From assembly GCF_015548375.1 (NCBI RefSeq), contig NZ_JADMWW010000014.1, forward strand, positions 1 to 64,000: a DNA stretch of 64,000 bases, written 5' to 3'. The stretch's first letter is position 1, and the number at the start of each line of letters is the position of its first letter. This DNA comes from Collinsella aerofaciens (GTDB taxonomy: Bacteria > Actinomycetota > Coriobacteriia > Coriobacteriales > Coriobacteriaceae). Below, piece after piece: positions 13,075 through 46,341 of this stretch. The notes beneath the pieces are model-generated. The model was not told the origin of the DNA, did not search any database, and was given only the letters and a program-made list of their open reading frames with translations. The position numbers and the translations under genes were made by a program.

Positions 13075-13144
13075 AACGAGAGTGGATAATCTCCCACTTT
13101 TGGCTCGAATGCGGGCTTGAAGTGAGAGATTTTCCACTCTCGTT
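13075..13144 (+). repeat. Long imperfect hairpin after htpG
   Basis: AACGAGAGTGGA and TCCACTCTCGTT form the outer stem. CCCACTT and AAGTGAG continue it inward, giving arms of about 25 nt round a 20-nt loop. No T-run follows directly. Compare the other unusually long intergenic hairpins in this window. Confidence 0.6.
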
Positions 13145-24035: not shown

Positions 24036-24079
24036 GAATACCGCATGTTACGTGCATAGAAGGAGGAATGGGAGGAAAC

Positions 24080-26893
24080 GTGGCTGAGAACCTAAGCAAC
24101 CAGTCTGTACCCGAAGCCGCGGCGCGCGTCGCTGCCGTGGTCAACCGCCTCGTTAACCGAATCGGCTCGAATGCCGAGTCCAGGGAGCGTCTCGCCGAGA
24201 TCGAGATCCCCGAGGAGCTGCGCGACAATCTGGCGCTGTTCTTGCGCCTGGAGCGCCGTGTGCTTAGCGAGTATGATCCCGAGATCGCGGACCTGTTCGA
24301 CAAGATTTTGACAGCCGAGATTGTGGTCAATGCCGGCAACCCCGGTACCTGCGCTGCCGACGAAGCCGTCGACGAGCAGGGCGTGCCCACCGCCGACGAG
24401 CCCACTGCCGTGGCATTTCGTGAGGTCGTCGATTTGATCGACAGCCTGCCGCTCGATAAGCAGCAGGTCATCGTTCGCGCCTTTACGAGCTTTTTCCATC
24501 TGGCAAACCTGTCGGAGGAGAACTACCGTGTGGCGCAGCTGCGCGAGCGCGAGGCCGGTGCGTCGACCGATACCGAGGTCGATCCTGCCAACGAGCTTAC
24601 CGTTGCCTATCACCAGCTGGTGAATGAGCTGGGTGTCGAGGGTGCCAACGAGCTGCTCGACAAGCTCGAGTTCCACCCTGTCTTTACCGCACATCCCACC
24701 GAGGCCCGTCGTAAGGCCGTCGAGGGCAAGATCCGCCGTATCTCCAACCTGCTGGAGGAGCGTCCGCGTCTGGGCGGCTCCGACCTGGTGGAGAACGAGC
24801 GCCATATGCTGCAGGAGATCGACGCCCTGGTGCGTACGAGTCCCATCGCGCTCAAGAAGCCCACGCCGGTCGAGGAAGCCGATACCATCATCGACATCTT
24901 CGATAACACGCTGTTCGACGTTATCCCCGTTATCTATCGTCGTTTTGACGATTGGGTGCTGGGCGACAAGGCCGGTACTGTGCCGCCGCTGTGCCCGGCG
25001 TTCTTCCATCCCGGCAGCTGGATCGGTTCCGACCGCGACGGTAACCCCAACGTCACCGCCAAGGTGAGCCGTGAGGTCGCCGCCAAGTACTTTACGCACA
25101 TGGTGCTCAAGCTCGAGGACAAGTGCCGCCACATCGGCCGCAACCTCACGCTCGAGGCTACCTACAGCAAGCCGTCGGCCGAGCTCATTAACCTGTGGAA
25201 CCATCAGGTCGAGATGAGCCCTCGTTACACGGCCCGCGCCGAGCTGATCTCCGAGCACGAGCCGCATCGCGCCGTCATGCTCGTCATGGCCGACCGCCTG
25301 AACGCCACCGTCCGTCGTATCACCGACACCATGTACCACAGCGCCGACGAGTTCCTGGATGACCTGCGCGTCGTCCAGCGTTCGCTGGCCGCCTGCGGTG
25401 CCGTCCGTGCTGCCTACGGCCCGGTCCAAACCATCATCTGGCAGGTCGAGTCCTTCGGCTTCCATATGGTCGAGATGGAGTTCCGTCAGCACTCCGTGGT
25501 GCATGCCCGCGCCCTTAAGGATATCCACGAGAACGGTATCCATGGCGACCTGCAGCCCATGACGCGCGAGGTCATCGATACCTTCCGCGCTATCGGCTCC
25601 ATCCAAAAGCGCTACGGCAAGAAGATGGCGCACCGCTACATCATCTCGTTTACCAAGAGCGCTCAGCATGTGGCCGACGTCTTTGAGCTGGCGCACCTGT
25701 CCTTTGCACACGAGGAGGATGTCCCCGAGCTCGACGTGATCCCGTTGTTCGAGCAGCTCGAGGACCTCGAGGGCTGCGTCGACGTGCTCGATCAGATGCT
25801 TACGCTGCCCGTGGTGCAAAAGCGCCTTGCCCAGACCAACCGCCGCATGGAGGTCATGCTGGGCTATTCCGACTCTTCCAAGGATGCCGGTCCTACCACG
25901 GCCATGCTCGCGCTGCACTCCGCGCAGGAGCGCATCGCCAAGTGGGCAGAGAAGAACGATATCGACCTGGTGCTCATGCACGGTCGCGGCGGTGCCGTGG
26001 GCCGTGGCGGCGGCCCGGCCAACAAGGCCGTGCTGGCGCAGCCCAAGGGTTCGGTCAACTGCTTCTTTAAGCTTACCGAGCAGGGCGAAGTCATCTTTGC
26101 CCGTTACGGCAACCGCACGCTGGCTCAGCGCCATGTTGAGTCCGTTGCCGCCGCAACGCTTTTGCAGTCGGCCCCGAGTGTCGAGAAGACCAACACCGAG
26201 ACCACGCAGAAGTTCTGGGATATGGCCGAGAAGCTCAACACTGCAAGCCACGAACGCTATCTGGACCTGCTGAACACCGAGGACTTTACACCGTGGTTCT
26301 CGACCGTGACGCCGCTGACCGAGGTCGGTCTGCTGCCGATCGGCTCGCGTCCCGCCAAGCGCGGTCTGGGCGCCAAGTCGCTCGATGACCTGCGTACCAT
26401 CCCGTGGATCTTCAGCTGGAGCCAGGCGCGCATTAACCTGGCCGCTTGGTACGGTCTGGGCACCGCCTGCGAGCAGCTTGGCGATCTTGACCAGCTCAAG
26501 GCTGCCTACCAGGAGTGGCCGTTCTTCCGCACCTTTATCGACAACATCGAGATGTCGATTGCTAAGACCGATCAGCGCATCGCCAAGATGTATCTGCATC
26601 TGGGCGACCGCCAGGATCTATCCGAGAAGGTCTTCACCGAGATGCAGCTCACTCGTAAGTGGGTCCTTGCCATCGTCGGTGACGAGTGGCCGCTGCAGCG
26701 CCGCCGTGTGCTTGGCTGTGCCGTTCGCGTGCGCAACCCCTACGTCGACGCCCTGTCCATCGCCCAGGTCCGCGCCCTTCGCGAGGTGCGTATGAACCAG
26801 GACGAGATGGCCGAGGAGAAGAAGGCCGAGTACATGAGCCTGATTCTTTCGACTGTGACCGGCGTCTCGGCAGGATTGCAGAACACGGGGTAA
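24080..26893 (+). CDS. ppc: Phosphoenolpyruvate carboxylase
   Basis: 937 aa from the GTG at 24080, chosen because GGGAGGAAAC gives normal spacing. The ATG at 24068 sits only one base after GGAGGA and would add four residues. The catalytic histidine region HPVFTAHPTEARRKAV, the GYSDSSKDAG motif and the mobile loop HGRGGAVGRGGGP mark a full-length bacterial-type enzyme. The C-terminus ends in the conserved QNTG. It adds bicarbonate to PEP to give oxaloacetate, feeding the anaplerotic and reductive (succinate) branches. It is monocistronic and followed by the long hairpin A. Confidence 0.95.
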   Translation: MAENLSNQSVPEAAARVAAVVNRLVNRIGSNAESRERLAEIEIPEELRDNLALFLRLERRVLSEYDPEIADLFDKILTAEIVVNAGNPGTCAADEAVDEQGVPTADEPTAVAFREVVDLIDSLPLDKQQVIVRAFTSFFHLANLSEENYRVAQLREREAGASTDTEVDPANELTVAYHQLVNELGVEGANELLDKLEFHPVFTAHPTEARRKAVEGKIRRISNLLEERPRLGGSDLVENERHMLQEIDALVRTSPIALKKPTPVEEADTIIDIFDNTLFDVIPVIYRRFDDWVLGDKAGTVPPLCPAFFHPGSWIGSDRDGNPNVTAKVSREVAAKYFTHMVLKLEDKCRHIGRNLTLEATYSKPSAELINLWNHQVEMSPRYTARAELISEHEPHRAVMLVMADRLNATVRRITDTMYHSADEFLDDLRVVQRSLAACGAVRAAYGPVQTIIWQVESFGFHMVEMEFRQHSVVHARALKDIHENGIHGDLQPMTREVIDTFRAIGSIQKRYGKKMAHRYIISFTKSAQHVADVFELAHLSFAHEEDVPELDVIPLFEQLEDLEGCVDVLDQMLTLPVVQKRLAQTNRRMEVMLGYSDSSKDAGPTTAMLALHSAQERIAKWAEKNDIDLVLMHGRGGAVGRGGGPANKAVLAQPKGSVNCFFKLTEQGEVIFARYGNRTLAQRHVESVAAATLLQSAPSVEKTNTETTQKFWDMAEKLNTASHERYLDLLNTEDFTPWFSTVTPLTEVGLLPIGSRPAKRGLGAKSLDDLRTIPWIFSWSQARINLAAWYGLGTACEQLGDLDQLKAAYQEWPFFRTFIDNIEMSIAKTDQRIAKMYLHLGDRQDLSEKVFTEMQLTRKWVLAIVGDEWPLQRRRVLGCAVRVRNPYVDALSIAQVRALREVRMNQDEMAEEKKAEYMSLILSTVTGVSAGLQNTG

Positions 26894-26916: not shown

Positions 26917-27043
26917 GGGACCCGATGGGTTTTTCTCTGAATGCGTCCTCGCACTTGAAGCCCCCTTATCCTGCTCCTTCGGAGCTGTGGATAGGGGGGC
27001 TTCGTGCTGCGGAATGCATTCAGAGGGAAACCCATCGGGCCCC
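26917..27043. repeat. Long structured hairpin A (127 nt)
   Basis: Arms of about 53 nt pair from GGGACCCGATGGG to CCCATCGGGCCCC, with a CTCC-TTC-GGAG apex. An internal module on the left arm (GCGTCCTCGCACTTGAA) and on the right arm (TTCGTGCTGCGGAATGC) is shared with hairpin B at 29854. It directly follows ppc. Confidence 0.75.
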
Positions 27044-27600
27044 TTCGTCCTCGGTCTTCTGGGATTAAAGCTGAAGGGAATAAGGCGCGCTTCGCGCATA
27101 GCGTGGAGTGCGGCGAGGGCTTCTTGCGTCCTGCGGAGTGTGCCTAAAAGTAAACTAATGGCGGGCCCTGCGATGTCCGGTCTTCGGCGGATCAGCCGCT
27201 GGGTGAGGGTGGTGCTTGGGGCGACGTGCAAAAAACGGAGTTTTCAGCAGCCAAAGATTGATGCATAAGGCCATAGCCGGCTTTCGCTGCCTTTGTTGAT
27301 GCTTTTGCACGACGATTGGGCTTTGGCGACGATCATATATGGCTGGTTTCTCGCCGCATGCTATCCAGATGGGTCGAGTCATGAGGACTATCTACCTTTT
27401 GAAAGATTTTTGGCACCAAAATCTTATCCCGCGATGCTGAATACTCGCAAAAATGCACGCTCCGGAGGGTACTACCCAGTTATGGCCAGAAATCCATGCG
27501 CCATCTTATGCAATTAATTAACGAATTTATGCAAAATGGCTTACGTGCGTACGTCTCGGACTAGATGTTTGCCTCGGCGCTGCGTAAATCATCCTGTCTA
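27044..27600. other. Long non-coding stretch upstream of larA
   Basis: This part of the 880-base gap between ppc and larA holds no convincing gene. The segment at 27119-27143 repeats the right-arm motif of hairpins A and B (GCGTCCTGCGGAGTGTGCC) without a visible partner, so it may be a decayed third copy. From about 27300 the DNA is AT-richer than its surroundings. Short frames there lack ribosome binding sites and recognisable sequence. Confidence 0.45.
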
Positions 27601-27616
27601 TAGTGTCTTTGACAGG

Positions 27617-27653
27617 CGGCCGCGGTCCCGTTTGGGATCACGGCCGTTTTGTT
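27617..27653 (+). terminator. Leader terminator-like hairpin before larA
   Basis: CGGCCGCGGTCCC pairs with GGGATCACGGCCG (one mismatch, one G-U pair), loop GTTT, followed by TTTTGTTGT. It lies about 120 bases upstream of the larA start and just after a TATAGT box at 27599. Confidence 0.6.
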
Positions 27654-27772
27654 GTGGGTCAAATATGAACGTTGTGTTAATGAGTCGGTGGACGGTGGAG
27701 TTTTTCGGTGAGCGGCGTATCCTTCCAACGGTTAATCTAGTGTGTCAGTTGAAAGGAAGAGGGCGCTCGACA

Positions 27773-29050
27773 TTGTTTGAATGTGAACTGCCGTTTGACC
27801 ACAAGACGTTGCATTTGGAGCTCGAGGATAAGAACTTCGCGGGTGTGATGGAAGGTCACCAAAACGAGTTTAAGACCACAAAATCGCAGGAAGAGCTGGT
27901 AGAGGAGTCGCTTGCCAACCCTTATGGCTCGCCTTCGCTCGAGGAGCTTTGCGCTGGCAAGAAGGATATTGTCATTATTAGCTCCGACCATACGCGCCCC
28001 GTTCCCTCGCGTGTGACGATGCCTATTCTGCTGCATCACATCCATTCCGCTGCGCCCGAGGCTCGCGTGCGTATTTTGGTTGCTACGGGTATGCATCGTC
28101 CGTCGACGCACGAGGAGCTCGTCAACAAGTACGGCGAGGAAATTGTTGCCAACGAGGAAATCGTTATGCACGTCGCGACTGACGACAGCATGATGAAAAA
28201 GATCGGCACCCTGCCTTCTGGTGGCGAGTGCATCATCAATAAGATTGCCGTCGATTGCGATCTGCTGCTTGCCGAGGGCTTTATTGAGCCGCACTTCTTT
28301 GCTGGTTTCTCCGGCAGCCGCAAGTCCGTCCTGCCTGGCATCGCCAGCTACAAGACCATCATGTACAACCACAACGGCCAGTTTGTGAACGATTCCCATT
28401 CGCGTGCCGGCAACCTGTGCCATAACCACGTGAGCGAGGACATGTTTGCCGCTGCCGAGATGGCTCACCTTGCCTTTGTGCTGAACGTGGTGCTCAACGG
28501 CAAGCACGAGGTCATTGGCTCCTTCGCCGGCGACATCCACAAGGCACACGAGGCTGGCTGCGAGTTCGTAAAGAGCCTTGCCGGCGTTGAGCCCGTCGAG
28601 TGCGAGATTGCCATCACCACCAACGGCGGCTACCCGCTCGACCAGAACATCTACCAGGCCGTGAAGGGCATGTGCTCTGCCGAGGCCACGCTTCCCGAGG
28701 GCGGTGTGATTATCGACGTTGCCGGTTGTGCCGACGGTCACGGTGGCGAGGGCTTCTATCACAACATCGCCGACAACGATCCGGCAGAGTTTGAGCGTGC
28801 CTGCATCGATCGTCCCAAGGACGAGACCCTGCCCGATCAGTGGACGAGCCAGATTTTCGCCCGCATCCTGGCACATCACCCTGTGATCATGGTTACCGAC
28901 CTGTGCGATCACCAGATGATTAAGGATATGCACATGACGCCGGTCAACACCCTCGAGGAGGCGCTCAAGCTCGCCTTTGAGATGAAAGGTGCCGATGCCA
29001 AGGTGGCCGTCATTCCCGATGGCCTGGGCGTTGTCGTCGCTCAGCACTAG
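27773..29050 (+). CDS. larA: Nickel-dependent lactate racemase
   Basis: 425 aa from a TTG start at 27773. The start is supported by homology: counted from it, the nickel-pincer cofactor lysine in GFSGSRKSVLP is K184, and the catalytic histidines fall at H108 (GMHRP), H174 (EPHFF) and H200 (MYNHNG). These are the numbers of the characterised Lactobacillus plantarum enzyme. The purine-rich AGGAAGAGGG lies about 12 bases upstream. Longer ATG starts at 27665 or 27680 would add unmatched residues. The enzyme interconverts D- and L-lactate using a covalently bound pyridinium-3,5-bisthiocarboxylic acid mononucleotide nickel cofactor. It is followed by the lactate channel gene; the cofactor biosynthesis genes larB and larC converge from the right. 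Confidence 0.93.
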   Translation: MFECELPFDHKTLHLELEDKNFAGVMEGHQNEFKTTKSQEELVEESLANPYGSPSLEELCAGKKDIVIISSDHTRPVPSRVTMPILLHHIHSAAPEARVRILVATGMHRPSTHEELVNKYGEEIVANEEIVMHVATDDSMMKKIGTLPSGGECIINKIAVDCDLLLAEGFIEPHFFAGFSGSRKSVLPGIASYKTIMYNHNGQFVNDSHSRAGNLCHNHVSEDMFAAAEMAHLAFVLNVVLNGKHEVIGSFAGDIHKAHEAGCEFVKSLAGVEPVECEIAITTNGGYPLDQNIYQAVKGMCSAEATLPEGGVIIDVAGCADGHGGEGFYHNIADNDPAEFERACIDRPKDETLPDQWTSQIFARILAHHPVIMVTDLCDHQMIKDMHMTPVNTLEEALKLAFEMKGADAKVAVIPDGLGVVVAQH

Positions 29051-29099
29051 CGCGCGGCCTAAACGAATCGTTTATAACCGACAAGAAAGATAAGGTTTT

Positions 29100-29831
29100 A
29101 TGCTTACCAAACTCCTCTGCGAATTCGGCGCAACGGCCCTCATGATCATCTTTGGCGTGGGCGTACACTGCGATACCGTGCTTAAGGGCACCAAGTATCA
29201 GGGCTCCGGCCACATGTTTGCCATCACCACCTGGTCTTTTGGCATCTCGGTCGCTCTGTTTATCTTTGGCGGCGCCGTGTGCATGAACCCCGCCATGGTG
29301 CTTGCCCAGTGCATCGTAGGCCTGGTGCCGTGGAGCAGCTGCATTCCCTTCATGATTGCCGATATGCTCGGCGGCTTTGCGGGCGCCGTGATCGCGTGGT
29401 TGATGTATGCCGATGAGTTCAAGGCTTCCGATGGCGTCGTCGACCCCATTGCCCAGCGCAACATCTTCTCGACCAACCCCACCACCGAGGGTACGAACTA
29501 CGCCCGTAACTTCTTCTGCGAGGCTATCTGCACCTTTGTGTTCATCAGCGCCATCCTCGCTGCCGCTAACCGCGCCGGCGAGAACGTTCTGATGCTCGCC
29601 ATCTGCGTCGGCCTGATCGTTTGGGCCGTTGGCATGGGCATGGGCGGCATCACCGGCTTCGCCATGAACCAGGCTCGTGACCTTGGTCCTCGCATGGCCT
29701 ATCAGGTGCTGCCGATCAAGAACAAGGCTGACAACAACTGGAAGTACGGCCTGCTCGTTCCTGGCATCGCTCCGTTTGTCGGCGCTGCTCTGGCTGCGCT
29801 GTTTGTGCATGGTTTCTTGGGCATGTTCTAG
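29100..29831 (+). CDS. larD: MIP-family channel, LarD-like lactate facilitator
   Basis: 243 aa with six helices and two half-helix loops of the aquaporin/GlpF family. The first loop is the usual NPA (N63-P64-A65). The second reads N190-Q191-A192-R193-D194, that is NQARD where the family has NPARD; the downstream LGPR is kept. The position 49 bases after larA supports the LarD assignment: in Lactobacillus, LarD is an aquaglyceroporin moving lactic acid. A plain glycerol or water facilitator remains possible. Confidence 0.8.
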   Translation: MLTKLLCEFGATALMIIFGVGVHCDTVLKGTKYQGSGHMFAITTWSFGISVALFIFGGAVCMNPAMVLAQCIVGLVPWSSCIPFMIADMLGGFAGAVIAWLMYADEFKASDGVVDPIAQRNIFSTNPTTEGTNYARNFFCEAICTFVFISAILAAANRAGENVLMLAICVGLIVWAVGMGMGGITGFAMNQARDLGPRMAYQVLPIKNKADNNWKYGLLVPGIAPFVGAALAALFVHGFLGMF

Positions 29832-29853
29832 TCTGAGGCTACATAGGTTGTCC

Positions 29854-29978
29854 GCCGTCCGCATGGGGTAACTTCCCAGCGCGTCCTCGGACATGAAAGA
29901 ACCCCCGCTGCGCACTTCGTGCGGCGGGGGTTCTTTCGTCCTGCGGAGTGCGCTGGGAAGTTACCCCATGCGGACGGC
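29854..29978. repeat. Long structured hairpin B (125 nt)
   Basis: Arms of about 54 nt pair from GCCGTCCGCATGGGG to CCCCATGCGGACGGC. The left arm carries GCGTCCTCGGACATGAA and the right arm TTTCGTCCTGCGGAGTGC, with a CGCAC-TTC-GTGCG apex. It sits between the convergent larD and tetR genes and shares its internal module with hairpin A. The following 150 bases to 30134 show nothing else clear. Confidence 0.8.
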
Positions 29979-42028: not shown

Positions 42029-42049
42029 TGGAGCATGGTTTTGGACCCT

Positions 42050-42269
42050 GTGGTCAAAAAATACCAAATATGAGTACTGTTGCAAAAGAGGTGTCATATT
42101 TTTCGGCCTGCTCTGAGCGAAAATGGGCTCATAATCAATTTATCTAACCCCCTATAGACGCGATTCGATGGCTTCCAAAACATTAAAATCGGCCAAATCG
42201 GCCAATTTGCTCTCAATTCTGCTGCTACTAAATTTGTGACAGTACTCATATTTGCCACTTTTTGTCCAC
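42050..42269. mobile_element. MITE-like element with 37-bp imperfect terminal inverted repeats
   Basis: The left end 42050-42086 and right end 42233-42269 are inverted copies sharing the uninterrupted core CAAATATGAGTACTGT, with about 30 of 37 positions matching. The 146-base interior is AT-rich and has no gene; it includes the tandem GGCCAAATCGGCCAA. Total 220 bp. No clear target duplication is visible. Confidence 0.55.
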
Positions 42270-42366
42270 GGGGTGTCCGAAAGGGTCCTCGACAAGCATC
42301 TAACGCTACAATAACTACCACATGGCTGGGTTTGCCAGCCGAATGTACGATGTCGTGGGAGGGGAC

Positions 42367-46215: not shown

Positions 46216-46265
46216 ATTTGAGGGAGAGTACGGCGAGTCGAAGAGTATTTTTGGGGTATCGTTAA

Positions 46266-46341
46266 ATCAGTTGCGGTGGAATACGGACTGTTTTGGCTGT
46301 CAAAGGCCTTATCTACTCCGTATTCCACCGCAACTTTTTTT
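46266..46341. repeat. 75-bp hairpin repeat, copy 1 (kdp left border)
   Basis: TTGCGGTGGAATACGGA and TCCGTATTCCACCGCAA form a perfect 17-bp stem round a 29-base loop, followed by seven T on the plus strand. An almost identical copy lies at 54675 in the same orientation. The kdpE stop codon is nine bases further on. Confidence 0.9.

Follow-up and report, generated by a model that had tools for sequence, protein, structure and literature searches.

Long palindromic hairpins with a shared internal module lie just past stop codons in Collinsella aerofaciens and other Coriobacteriia and may mark transcript 3' ends

Results

Two long hairpins downstream of ppc and larD

The window analysed here is the whole 64,000-nucleotide stretch of Collinsella aerofaciens DNA at positions 1 to 64,000 of contig NZ_JADMWW010000014.1. 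Its features discussed below are all on the plus strand:

24068-26893, plus: ppc, phosphoenolpyruvate carboxylase, directly upstream of hairpin A (the open reading frame ends at 26893)
26917-27043, plus: hairpin A, an intact element of the family termed F1 here, at the 3' end of ppc (allele A)
26945-26959, plus: left module of A, GTCCTCGCACTTGAA, a pattern match, aligned in alignment A1
27001-27017, plus: right module of A, TTCGTGCTGCGGAATGC, a pattern match
27108-27190, plus: allele C remnant, comprising the right half (about 27108-27167) and 3' flank, left half missing
27704-29050, plus: larA, nickel-dependent lactate racemase, downstream of hairpin A (reading frame open from 27536)
29100-29831, plus: larD, lactic acid transporter of the MIP family, directly upstream of hairpin B
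29854-29978, plus: hairpin B, an intact F1 element at the 3' end of larD
29883-29897, plus: left module of B, GTCCTCGGACATGAA, a pattern match
29935-29951, plus: right module of B, TTCGTCCTGCGGAGTGC, a pattern match

The products of larA (NF033504.2, E=9.2e-181) and larD (NF043012.1, E=5.7e-126) pass their NCBIfam cut-offs, and that of ppc is a strong match to NF000584.1 (E=1.1e-203, 678.9 bits) yet falls below the curated cut-off of 815. Folding and an inverted-repeat search both bear out the hairpins that a first-pass annotation had placed at 26917-27043 and 29854-29978. On the plus strand A folds at -99.1 kcal/mol (z = -11.8) and B at -117.7 kcal/mol (z = -15.4), with none of 200 shuffles equally stable in either case, and both figure among the nine inverted repeats of the whole window, A as repeat I1 (76% over 55-nt arms) and the outer arms of B as repeat I3 (100%, with perfect 29-bp arms at 29854-29882 and 29950-29978). 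Scores against the covariance model are 71.9 bits for A and 106.7 bits for B. The sequence also agrees with that annotation in the module common to both hairpins, in its change from GCAC/GTGC in A to GGAC/GTCC in B, in the TTC apices and in the lack of a T-run after either hairpin. The link of the two hairpins to the lar genes is incidental, because other F1 copies follow unrelated genes.

The hairpins belong to a family

A covariance model search for further copies, as the annotation had proposed, recovered 16 distinct F1 copies in this genome, 15 of them intact and A and B among them (partial or weak matches at C9:50008, C6:37297 and C33:34752 were excluded), and gave matches in 27 of 43 Collinsella genomes, with 12-24 matches each in 21 of the 43. 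The 16 copies support the proposal that these are related structured RNAs or palindromic DNA elements in which a module is kept as the stems drift; neither of the outcomes that would have refuted it, an absence of further copies or a broken module pairing, arose. Nine loci gave no Rfam match at E 0.1, with only sub-threshold miRNA models at hairpin A, and with nothing on it in Rfam or literature searches the F1 family is apparently undescribed.

That these elements are ordinary bidirectional intrinsic terminators, merely long, with a module that is a chance or compositional resemblance, seems to us very improbable. They do lie where a terminator would, and the inner stem of B looks like a bidirectional one (AAAGAACCCCCGC ... 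GCGGGGGTTCTTT), but the module recurs in the copies found by the model in this genome, a search for the module together with complementary arms returned 109 distinct places and none in mononucleotide-shuffled sequence, and an exact pattern for the mini form of the element matched 34 of 396 genomes against a single match for the reversed control.

The mini form is present in about eight genera of Coriobacteriia. Those fetched, from seven genera, sit without exception (26/26) 34-63 nt past a stop codon on the same strand; this set is what remained of 30 loci after removal of L262, L265, L266 and L278 (coding or doubtful), and as it repeats genes (grcA from four strains, two L24-like loci, three purine-gene loci) it amounts to about 21 independent cases. 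Among the exact module matches listed, from 10 genomes, 13 of 42 are found 26-59 nt downstream of a gene from the set of 13 with an element in C. aerofaciens (binomial p ~3e-18, assuming independent matches and equally likely genes), and outside Collinsella 8 of the 35 listed matches follow such genes, namely groEL, PFOR, pta and Fe-ADH (p ~1.5e-10). Ten of the 12 matches in genome G311 were listed, so that 42 of 44 matches entered this count. The element is present at orthologous genes in genera besides Collinsella and in a second family of the order. The covariance model, R1, is biased towards the large form and the exact pattern towards the mini form, so neither amounts to a complete census outside Collinsella. 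In alignment A2 the invariant core is imposed by the search pattern and does not count as evidence for conservation.

Position after genes and exchange with intrinsic terminators

Large copies in this genome and in contigs of the C. aerofaciens clade show the same placement: 89 of 102 follow a same-strand stop codon by 37-64 nt (three further copies of the 105, with no upstream gene called, were left out), and 10 of the 13 exceptions are one locus. Two loci, in the FtsE and tRNA-Leu regions, are not behind a same-strand gene. The genes upstream of F1 are mostly those of central-metabolism enzymes and groEL, kinds of gene that are highly expressed in general.

At orthologous genes the element and the classical terminator replace one another. 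A hairpin followed by a T-tract was found within 130 nt past the stop in 12 of 19 element-free orthologues versus 3 of 20 element-bearing ones, and these three lie inside the palindrome (Fisher p = 0.003; some genes are counted repeatedly, a degenerate PFOR site in genome G012 was counted as element-bearing by a special rule, and the "own" rows for oppF and pfkA come from other strains). Within the single chromosome G002, canonical terminators followed 3 of 26 element genes versus 33 of 120 sampled others, which is not significant (Fisher p = 0.13). By eye, some mini forms end in short T-rich stretches (e.g. L275, L263), and these were not counted.

Alleles and remnants at ppc

The first-pass annotation had noted a third right-arm-like copy at 27119-27143. 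Such a copy is present, but its extent was drawn too short: the segment runs from 27108 to 27190 and is the right half of another allele, allele C, with 83/83 positions matching element L178 over its right half and 3' flank; L178 is intact at ppc in another strain. In the 11 rows compared at this gene, allele C is intact in eight, allele A in two and a third type in one. Right-type modules occur 11 times within 600 nt downstream of the 105 copies, ten times at ppc (seven strains), where the halves alternate, and once at thrB; the same scan gave five left-type matches (four of them A-flank sequence, one apparently coding), and the upstream scan one left-type and one right-type match, with two in the reversed control. 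A position weight matrix search for half elements was not stringent enough for counting, and exact patterns were used instead. The ppc site of C. bouchesdurhonensis is empty with both flanks retained, the only empty site seen, and whether this is the ancestral state or a loss is unsettled.

Such an empty site, right-half remnants downstream of live copies, different alleles at one gene in different strains and the recurrence of one inner hairpin at several genes would suit a mobile palindromic repeat of the REP, ERIC or MITE kind that prefers 3' ends as insertion sites and gains its arms once inserted, when the flanking host sequence is copied by fold-back, and chromosome G002 is rich in other palindromic repeats with conserved arms. 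We nevertheless consider this origin unlikely, though not to be dismissed. The element is found at orthologous genes in other genera and in another family, its orientation is uniform (all mini forms above), and its arms are not common to different loci, unlike those of a transposed unit. None of three candidate sites examined within the C. aerofaciens clade proved cleanly empty (they held other alleles or incomplete alignments), and no dedicated transposase was found. Y1_Tnp genes are present in 37 of 43 Collinsella genomes, including ones without F1 matches (subfamilies not separated), and within 1.5 kb of the two Y1_Tnp genes of this genome there was neither a module pair nor a fold below -85 kcal/mol in any 150-nt window. 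A RAYT/REP (REPtron) link was not supported, since the presence of Y1_Tnp does not track F1 and, in this genome, Y1_Tnp genes do not flank F1 copies. A phage or plasmid origin was likewise set aside: hairpin B had no blastn match in phages, the exact large-form pattern had none in viral contigs, and the plasmid collection yielded a single record, which is a 900-kb replicon of Collinsella.

A shared core between private arms

What the F1 copies have in common is a core, GTCCTCG-...-ATG / TGCGGA-n-TG, plus an inner hairpin; C-GTCC pairs in the consensus structure as well as in most folds of individual copies. The outer arms vary from gene to gene and yet are 97% Watson-Crick paired, and a weak common pattern beside the module persists although the arms differ between loci. 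In ten copies from this genome, 22 of 38 pairs change on both sides, with a covariation score of 0.526 versus 0.228 in shuffles (0/500 as high) and at most 0.164 when the partner is slid; the test used the same ten copies from which the structure was derived. Within single locus groups, 52 arm positions show at least two Watson-Crick pair types, a grouping that admits one-base shifts, so that its count of transversion-type changes is an upper bound. A larger sister family, F2, has 26 copies in one chromosome and near-perfect palindromes with up to 49/49 positions paired.

Unique mismatches in the arms comprise 20 G.U, 22 A.C and 27 others (104 of 105 copies; L102_4515, with a broken left arm, was dropped here though present in an earlier arm tally). 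Were the element to act solely as sense RNA, G.U should outnumber A.C in the arms, and it does not; the near-equality suggests that the arms are kept perfect at the DNA level. Equal rarity of the two mismatches and the near-perfect palindromes, above all those of F2, would also be expected if the element worked as DNA, in the form of a cruciform or a single-strand hairpin recognised by a DNA-binding protein (gyrase, a nucleoid or a replication factor) where busy genes end, and the RNA fold were incidental. E. coli REP/BIME sequences, which bind gyrase, set a precedent. We hold this reading to be improbable on several grounds. Distances fall in a narrow range and the orientation towards one gene is constant; at two convergent gene pairs there are two separate F2 copies apiece; neither replication strand is in excess (7/13 for F1, 14/26 for F2); and 10/10 aligned copies from this genome have a G.U pair in the module, which is strand-asymmetric. 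In folds of the whole element, core and inner hairpin included, G.U pairs are moreover commoner on the sense strand than on the antisense strand (51/27 for mini forms, 43/18 for F1, 88/53 for F2). Whether F1 acts as RNA or as DNA is still open.

Discussion

We lean slightly towards F1 being a 3'-end terminator or mRNA-end hairpin that has replaced intrinsic terminators. What has been observed is where F1 lies, how it is oriented, that it recurs at the same genes in other genera and that it exchanges with terminators at orthologues; termination, 3' protection and factor binding are inferences made without transcript data. In the mRNA, F1 would fold into a very stable rod with the conserved internal-loop module part way up, and would mark and protect the 3' end of transcripts mostly of central metabolism. 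Because it occupies the place of the ordinary terminator, its most likely effects are to halt RNA polymerase, either unaided or through a factor that recognises the module, and to block 3'-to-5' decay. A change in one arm would be copied to the other at the DNA level, so that private arms stay complementary; the copying is probably due to template switching during replication, as inferred from the mismatch pattern.

Like F1, intrinsic terminators are GC-rich hairpins just past the stop codon on the same strand, and an ordinary one stands at that place in the orthologous genes of many relatives. The F1 stem, however, is much longer, contains a conserved internal module and is a nearly perfect DNA palindrome, and no T-tract directly follows A or B. 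Against the terminator reading, this last absence means that termination would not be of the classical kind, and 30 to 49 paired bases are not needed for RNA termination. The non-significant contrast in G002, the lack of a G.U excess in the arms and the two loci that follow no same-strand gene also speak against it.

ERIC and other MITE-like imperfect palindromes are intergenic and about 127 bp long, and ERIC copies share their full-length sequence. F1 is similarly sized, intergenic and palindromic, but its copies share mainly the core and have no common terminal inverted repeat sequence. The CGTC-tagged REP super-family, as described in PMC3733652, consists of 20-40 bp elements with an unpaired tag; according to that paper some of their dimers sit within long palindromes, and CGTC REPs lack a dedicated transposase. 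Both these REPs and F1 are extragenic palindromes, and the left module of F1 is preceded by C, giving CGTC; the CGTC of F1 is paired, however, the elements in the window measure 125-127 bp, and the arms differ between loci. The words Actinobacteria and Collinsella do not occur in the main text of that paper. Template switching, as treated in PMC8794818, explains perfect stems and double substitutions without G.U intermediates in the hairpins of RNA genes, whereas here it is proposed for bacterial 3'-end palindromes.

A broader proposal, which we offer only tentatively and do not expect to hold in full, is that Coriobacteriia possess a second transcript-ending system for much-used genes, in which a conserved internal-loop module in a giant hairpin is read by a dedicated factor, terminators are replaced gene by gene, stems are perfected by template switching, and F2 is the same system with another module.

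If the terminator or mRNA-end reading is true, groEL and core fermentation genes of abundant gut bacteria carry a 3'-end signal that has not been described, and terminator predictors based on T-tracts would miss F1, which would affect operon maps and the engineering of these species. The family also lends itself to asking how long palindromes survive and remain perfect: its orthologous copies, with paired double substitutions and equal numbers of G.U and A.C intermediates in the arms, can separate correction at the DNA level from selection at the RNA level.

A hairpin family with a conserved core and private arms

The first-pass annotation had described two long hairpins, A and B, that share a covarying internal module, and both were found as described, in coordinates and in stable folds; none of 200 shuffles matched the stability of either.

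26917-27043: hairpin A, past ppc, fold -99.1 kcal/mol
29854-29978: hairpin B, past larD, fold -117.7 kcal/mol

In an Rfam scan, no family reached its curated score for hairpin A or B, and nine loci carrying copies of their family (F1) gave no match at E 0.1. Additional F1 copies were first obtained with a DNA search and two patterns, and alignment of ten revealed double changes at 22 of 38 pairs. That the two hairpins belong to a larger family was borne out with a covariance model, which identified 16 distinct copies in the source genome (15 intact, one cut on the right side). Common to the copies, with small variations, are a left core of GTCCTCG, a covarying 3-4 bp helix and (A)TG, and a right core of TGCGGA-n-TG, while the outer arms are locus-specific in sequence yet near-perfect complements of each other. 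Literature searches on palindromes in Collinsella, inverted repeats in C. aerofaciens, terminators in Coriobacteriia and RNA motifs in Coriobacteriaceae listed no such family, a negative limited to those searches.

Two of the source-genome copies lie ~1.9 kb apart (L057 and L063, G000 C11:227614 and 229492), one of them cut, with an IstB-like gene nearby by eye. Convergent F1 pairs ~300 bp apart occur in genomes G002, G006 and G023.

Distribution and position relative to genes

At a threshold of 1e-6, F1 matches were present in 27 of 43 Collinsella genomes and absent from 16, with 12-24 matches in 21 genomes and one to six in six (the two strands of one palindrome being scored separately). A genome scan matched at least 114 stretches, all Collinsella by title among the matches listed. 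C. bouchesdurhonensis and other Collinsella have a mini form, in which the same core carries a short apical hairpin. Its exact pattern matched in 34 of 396 Coriobacteriia genomes and 12 of 153 genera (reversed control, one match); setting aside five genomes with only apparently coding matches left 29 genomes, eight genera and three families, the third family resting on one match whose locus sequence was not inspected.

Of the 102 large copies with an upstream gene called, 89 are located 37-64 nt after a stop codon on the same strand; the 13 exceptions are one locus beside ftsE (ten), a tRNA-Leu locus (two) and a broken copy. For all 26 mini forms fetched (30 loci, with four that are coding or doubtful left out), such a stop precedes by 34-63 nt, and the next gene is co-directional in 18 and convergent in eight. 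We regard the F1 family and its 3'-end position as firm.

Genes upstream of F1 in the source genome are ppc, larD, groEL, pta, fba, asd and those for an ilvE-like aminotransferase, PFOR, a glycyl-radical protein, a GHMP kinase (thrB-like), Fe-ADH, a P-type ATPase and an esterase-like protein; some short names are our own labels, where only a family or no assignment was available. Across ten genomes and seven genera, 13 of the 42 exact matches listed are 26-59 nt past one of 13 genes that have F1 in C. aerofaciens. Outside Collinsella this holds for 8 of 35 among the matches listed: three at groEL (three genomes of another family), two at PFOR and two at pta (another genus), and one at Fe-ADH.

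Apparent allele replacement at ppc

The main rival explanation is that F1 is a mobile repeat with a 3'-end preference. Eleven ppc rows carry allele C (eight), allele A (two) or a third type (one), and several strains have, downstream of the live element, right halves that stem from other alleles; in L151 (4739-5260) a live C is followed by halves A, C and A in turn, and right-half remnants also lie behind the live element at ppc loci L107, L139 and L178. The third right-arm-like copy reported at 27119-27143 is a fossil element half, window 27108-27190 being identical at 83 of 83 positions to the right half of allele C, with its flank, in L178. An exact-motif count over 105 live copies gave 11 right-type modules in the 600 nt downstream, of which ten are at ppc (seven strains) and one is at thrB; upstream there are one left-type and one right-type module, and of five left-type matches downstream, four are an A-flank sequence. 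The pattern at ppc looks as if alleles had been replaced repeatedly, with breakage near the hairpin tip. Such swaps and remnants fit a mobile repeat, but the orientation of F1 and the gene association seen beyond Collinsella speak against it. By eye, another right half seems to be present at the fba site of G002.

Maintenance of arm pairing

Across 104 copies and 25 arm positions, Watson-Crick pairs fill 2526 of 2600 cells, and the unique mismatch events comprise 20 G.U, 22 A.C and 27 others. Paired transversions occur between strains, e.g. CCCCACAATC/GATTGTGGGG versus CCCCAGAATC/GATTCTGGGG. Since selection on the sense RNA only should favor G.U, the near equality of G.U and A.C together with the paired transversions point, on sequence evidence, to a process in which one arm would be copied into the other, and arm-to-arm copying in hairpins is described in PMC8794818. 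Selection on both strands, which would produce such symmetry too, is not ruled out. It counts against arm copying that in whole-element folds, which include the core and inner hairpin, the sense strand has more G.U than the antisense strand, and RNA-level selection may well act on the core.

A sister family and other repeats

The G002 chromosome contains 157 inverted repeats with at least 20 pairs. Strict motif and arms gave 13 F1 copies in this chromosome; 26 copies belong to a sister family of giant palindromes, F2 (e.g. L351, 1186825-1186989), with the core AGTCCTG...TGCGGAAC/T, in longer form AGTCCTG-...-AGCACATTAAGTGCT-...-TGCGGAACT. F2 arms are private like those of F1, with up to 49 of 49 positions paired; of the 26 copies, 15 come after a gene on their own strand, nine lie reversed and two are divergent.

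Several other G002 repeats have conserved arms and resemble ordinary MITE or REP families. Window elements with look-alikes there, all by eye, are:

13075-13144: REP-like palindrome with AGAGTGGATAATCTCCC; in G002 e.g. at 99512
42045-42274: ~230-bp MITE-like element with inverted ends, containing CAAATATGAGTACTG; in G002 at 265423, 1867660 and 2108521
46264-46340: REP-like TTGCGGTG(A/G)AATA...GGACTGTTT-type palindrome; several G002 repeats with conserved arms

Relation to ordinary terminators

In G012, inferred to be C. bouchesdurhonensis, and in G014, an ordinary hairpin-plus-T terminator stands at the end of many of these genes, in contrast to the giant hairpin of C. aerofaciens. By one script rule, such terminators follow 12 of 19 element-free but 3 of 20 element-bearing orthologues (p = 0.003; rows not fully independent), and those three lie inside the palindromes. 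A single genome gave the same direction without significance (3 of 26 element genes versus 33 of 120 sampled genes, p = 0.13). Our best inference, which we would rate about as likely to be right as wrong, is that F1 ends or protects transcripts.
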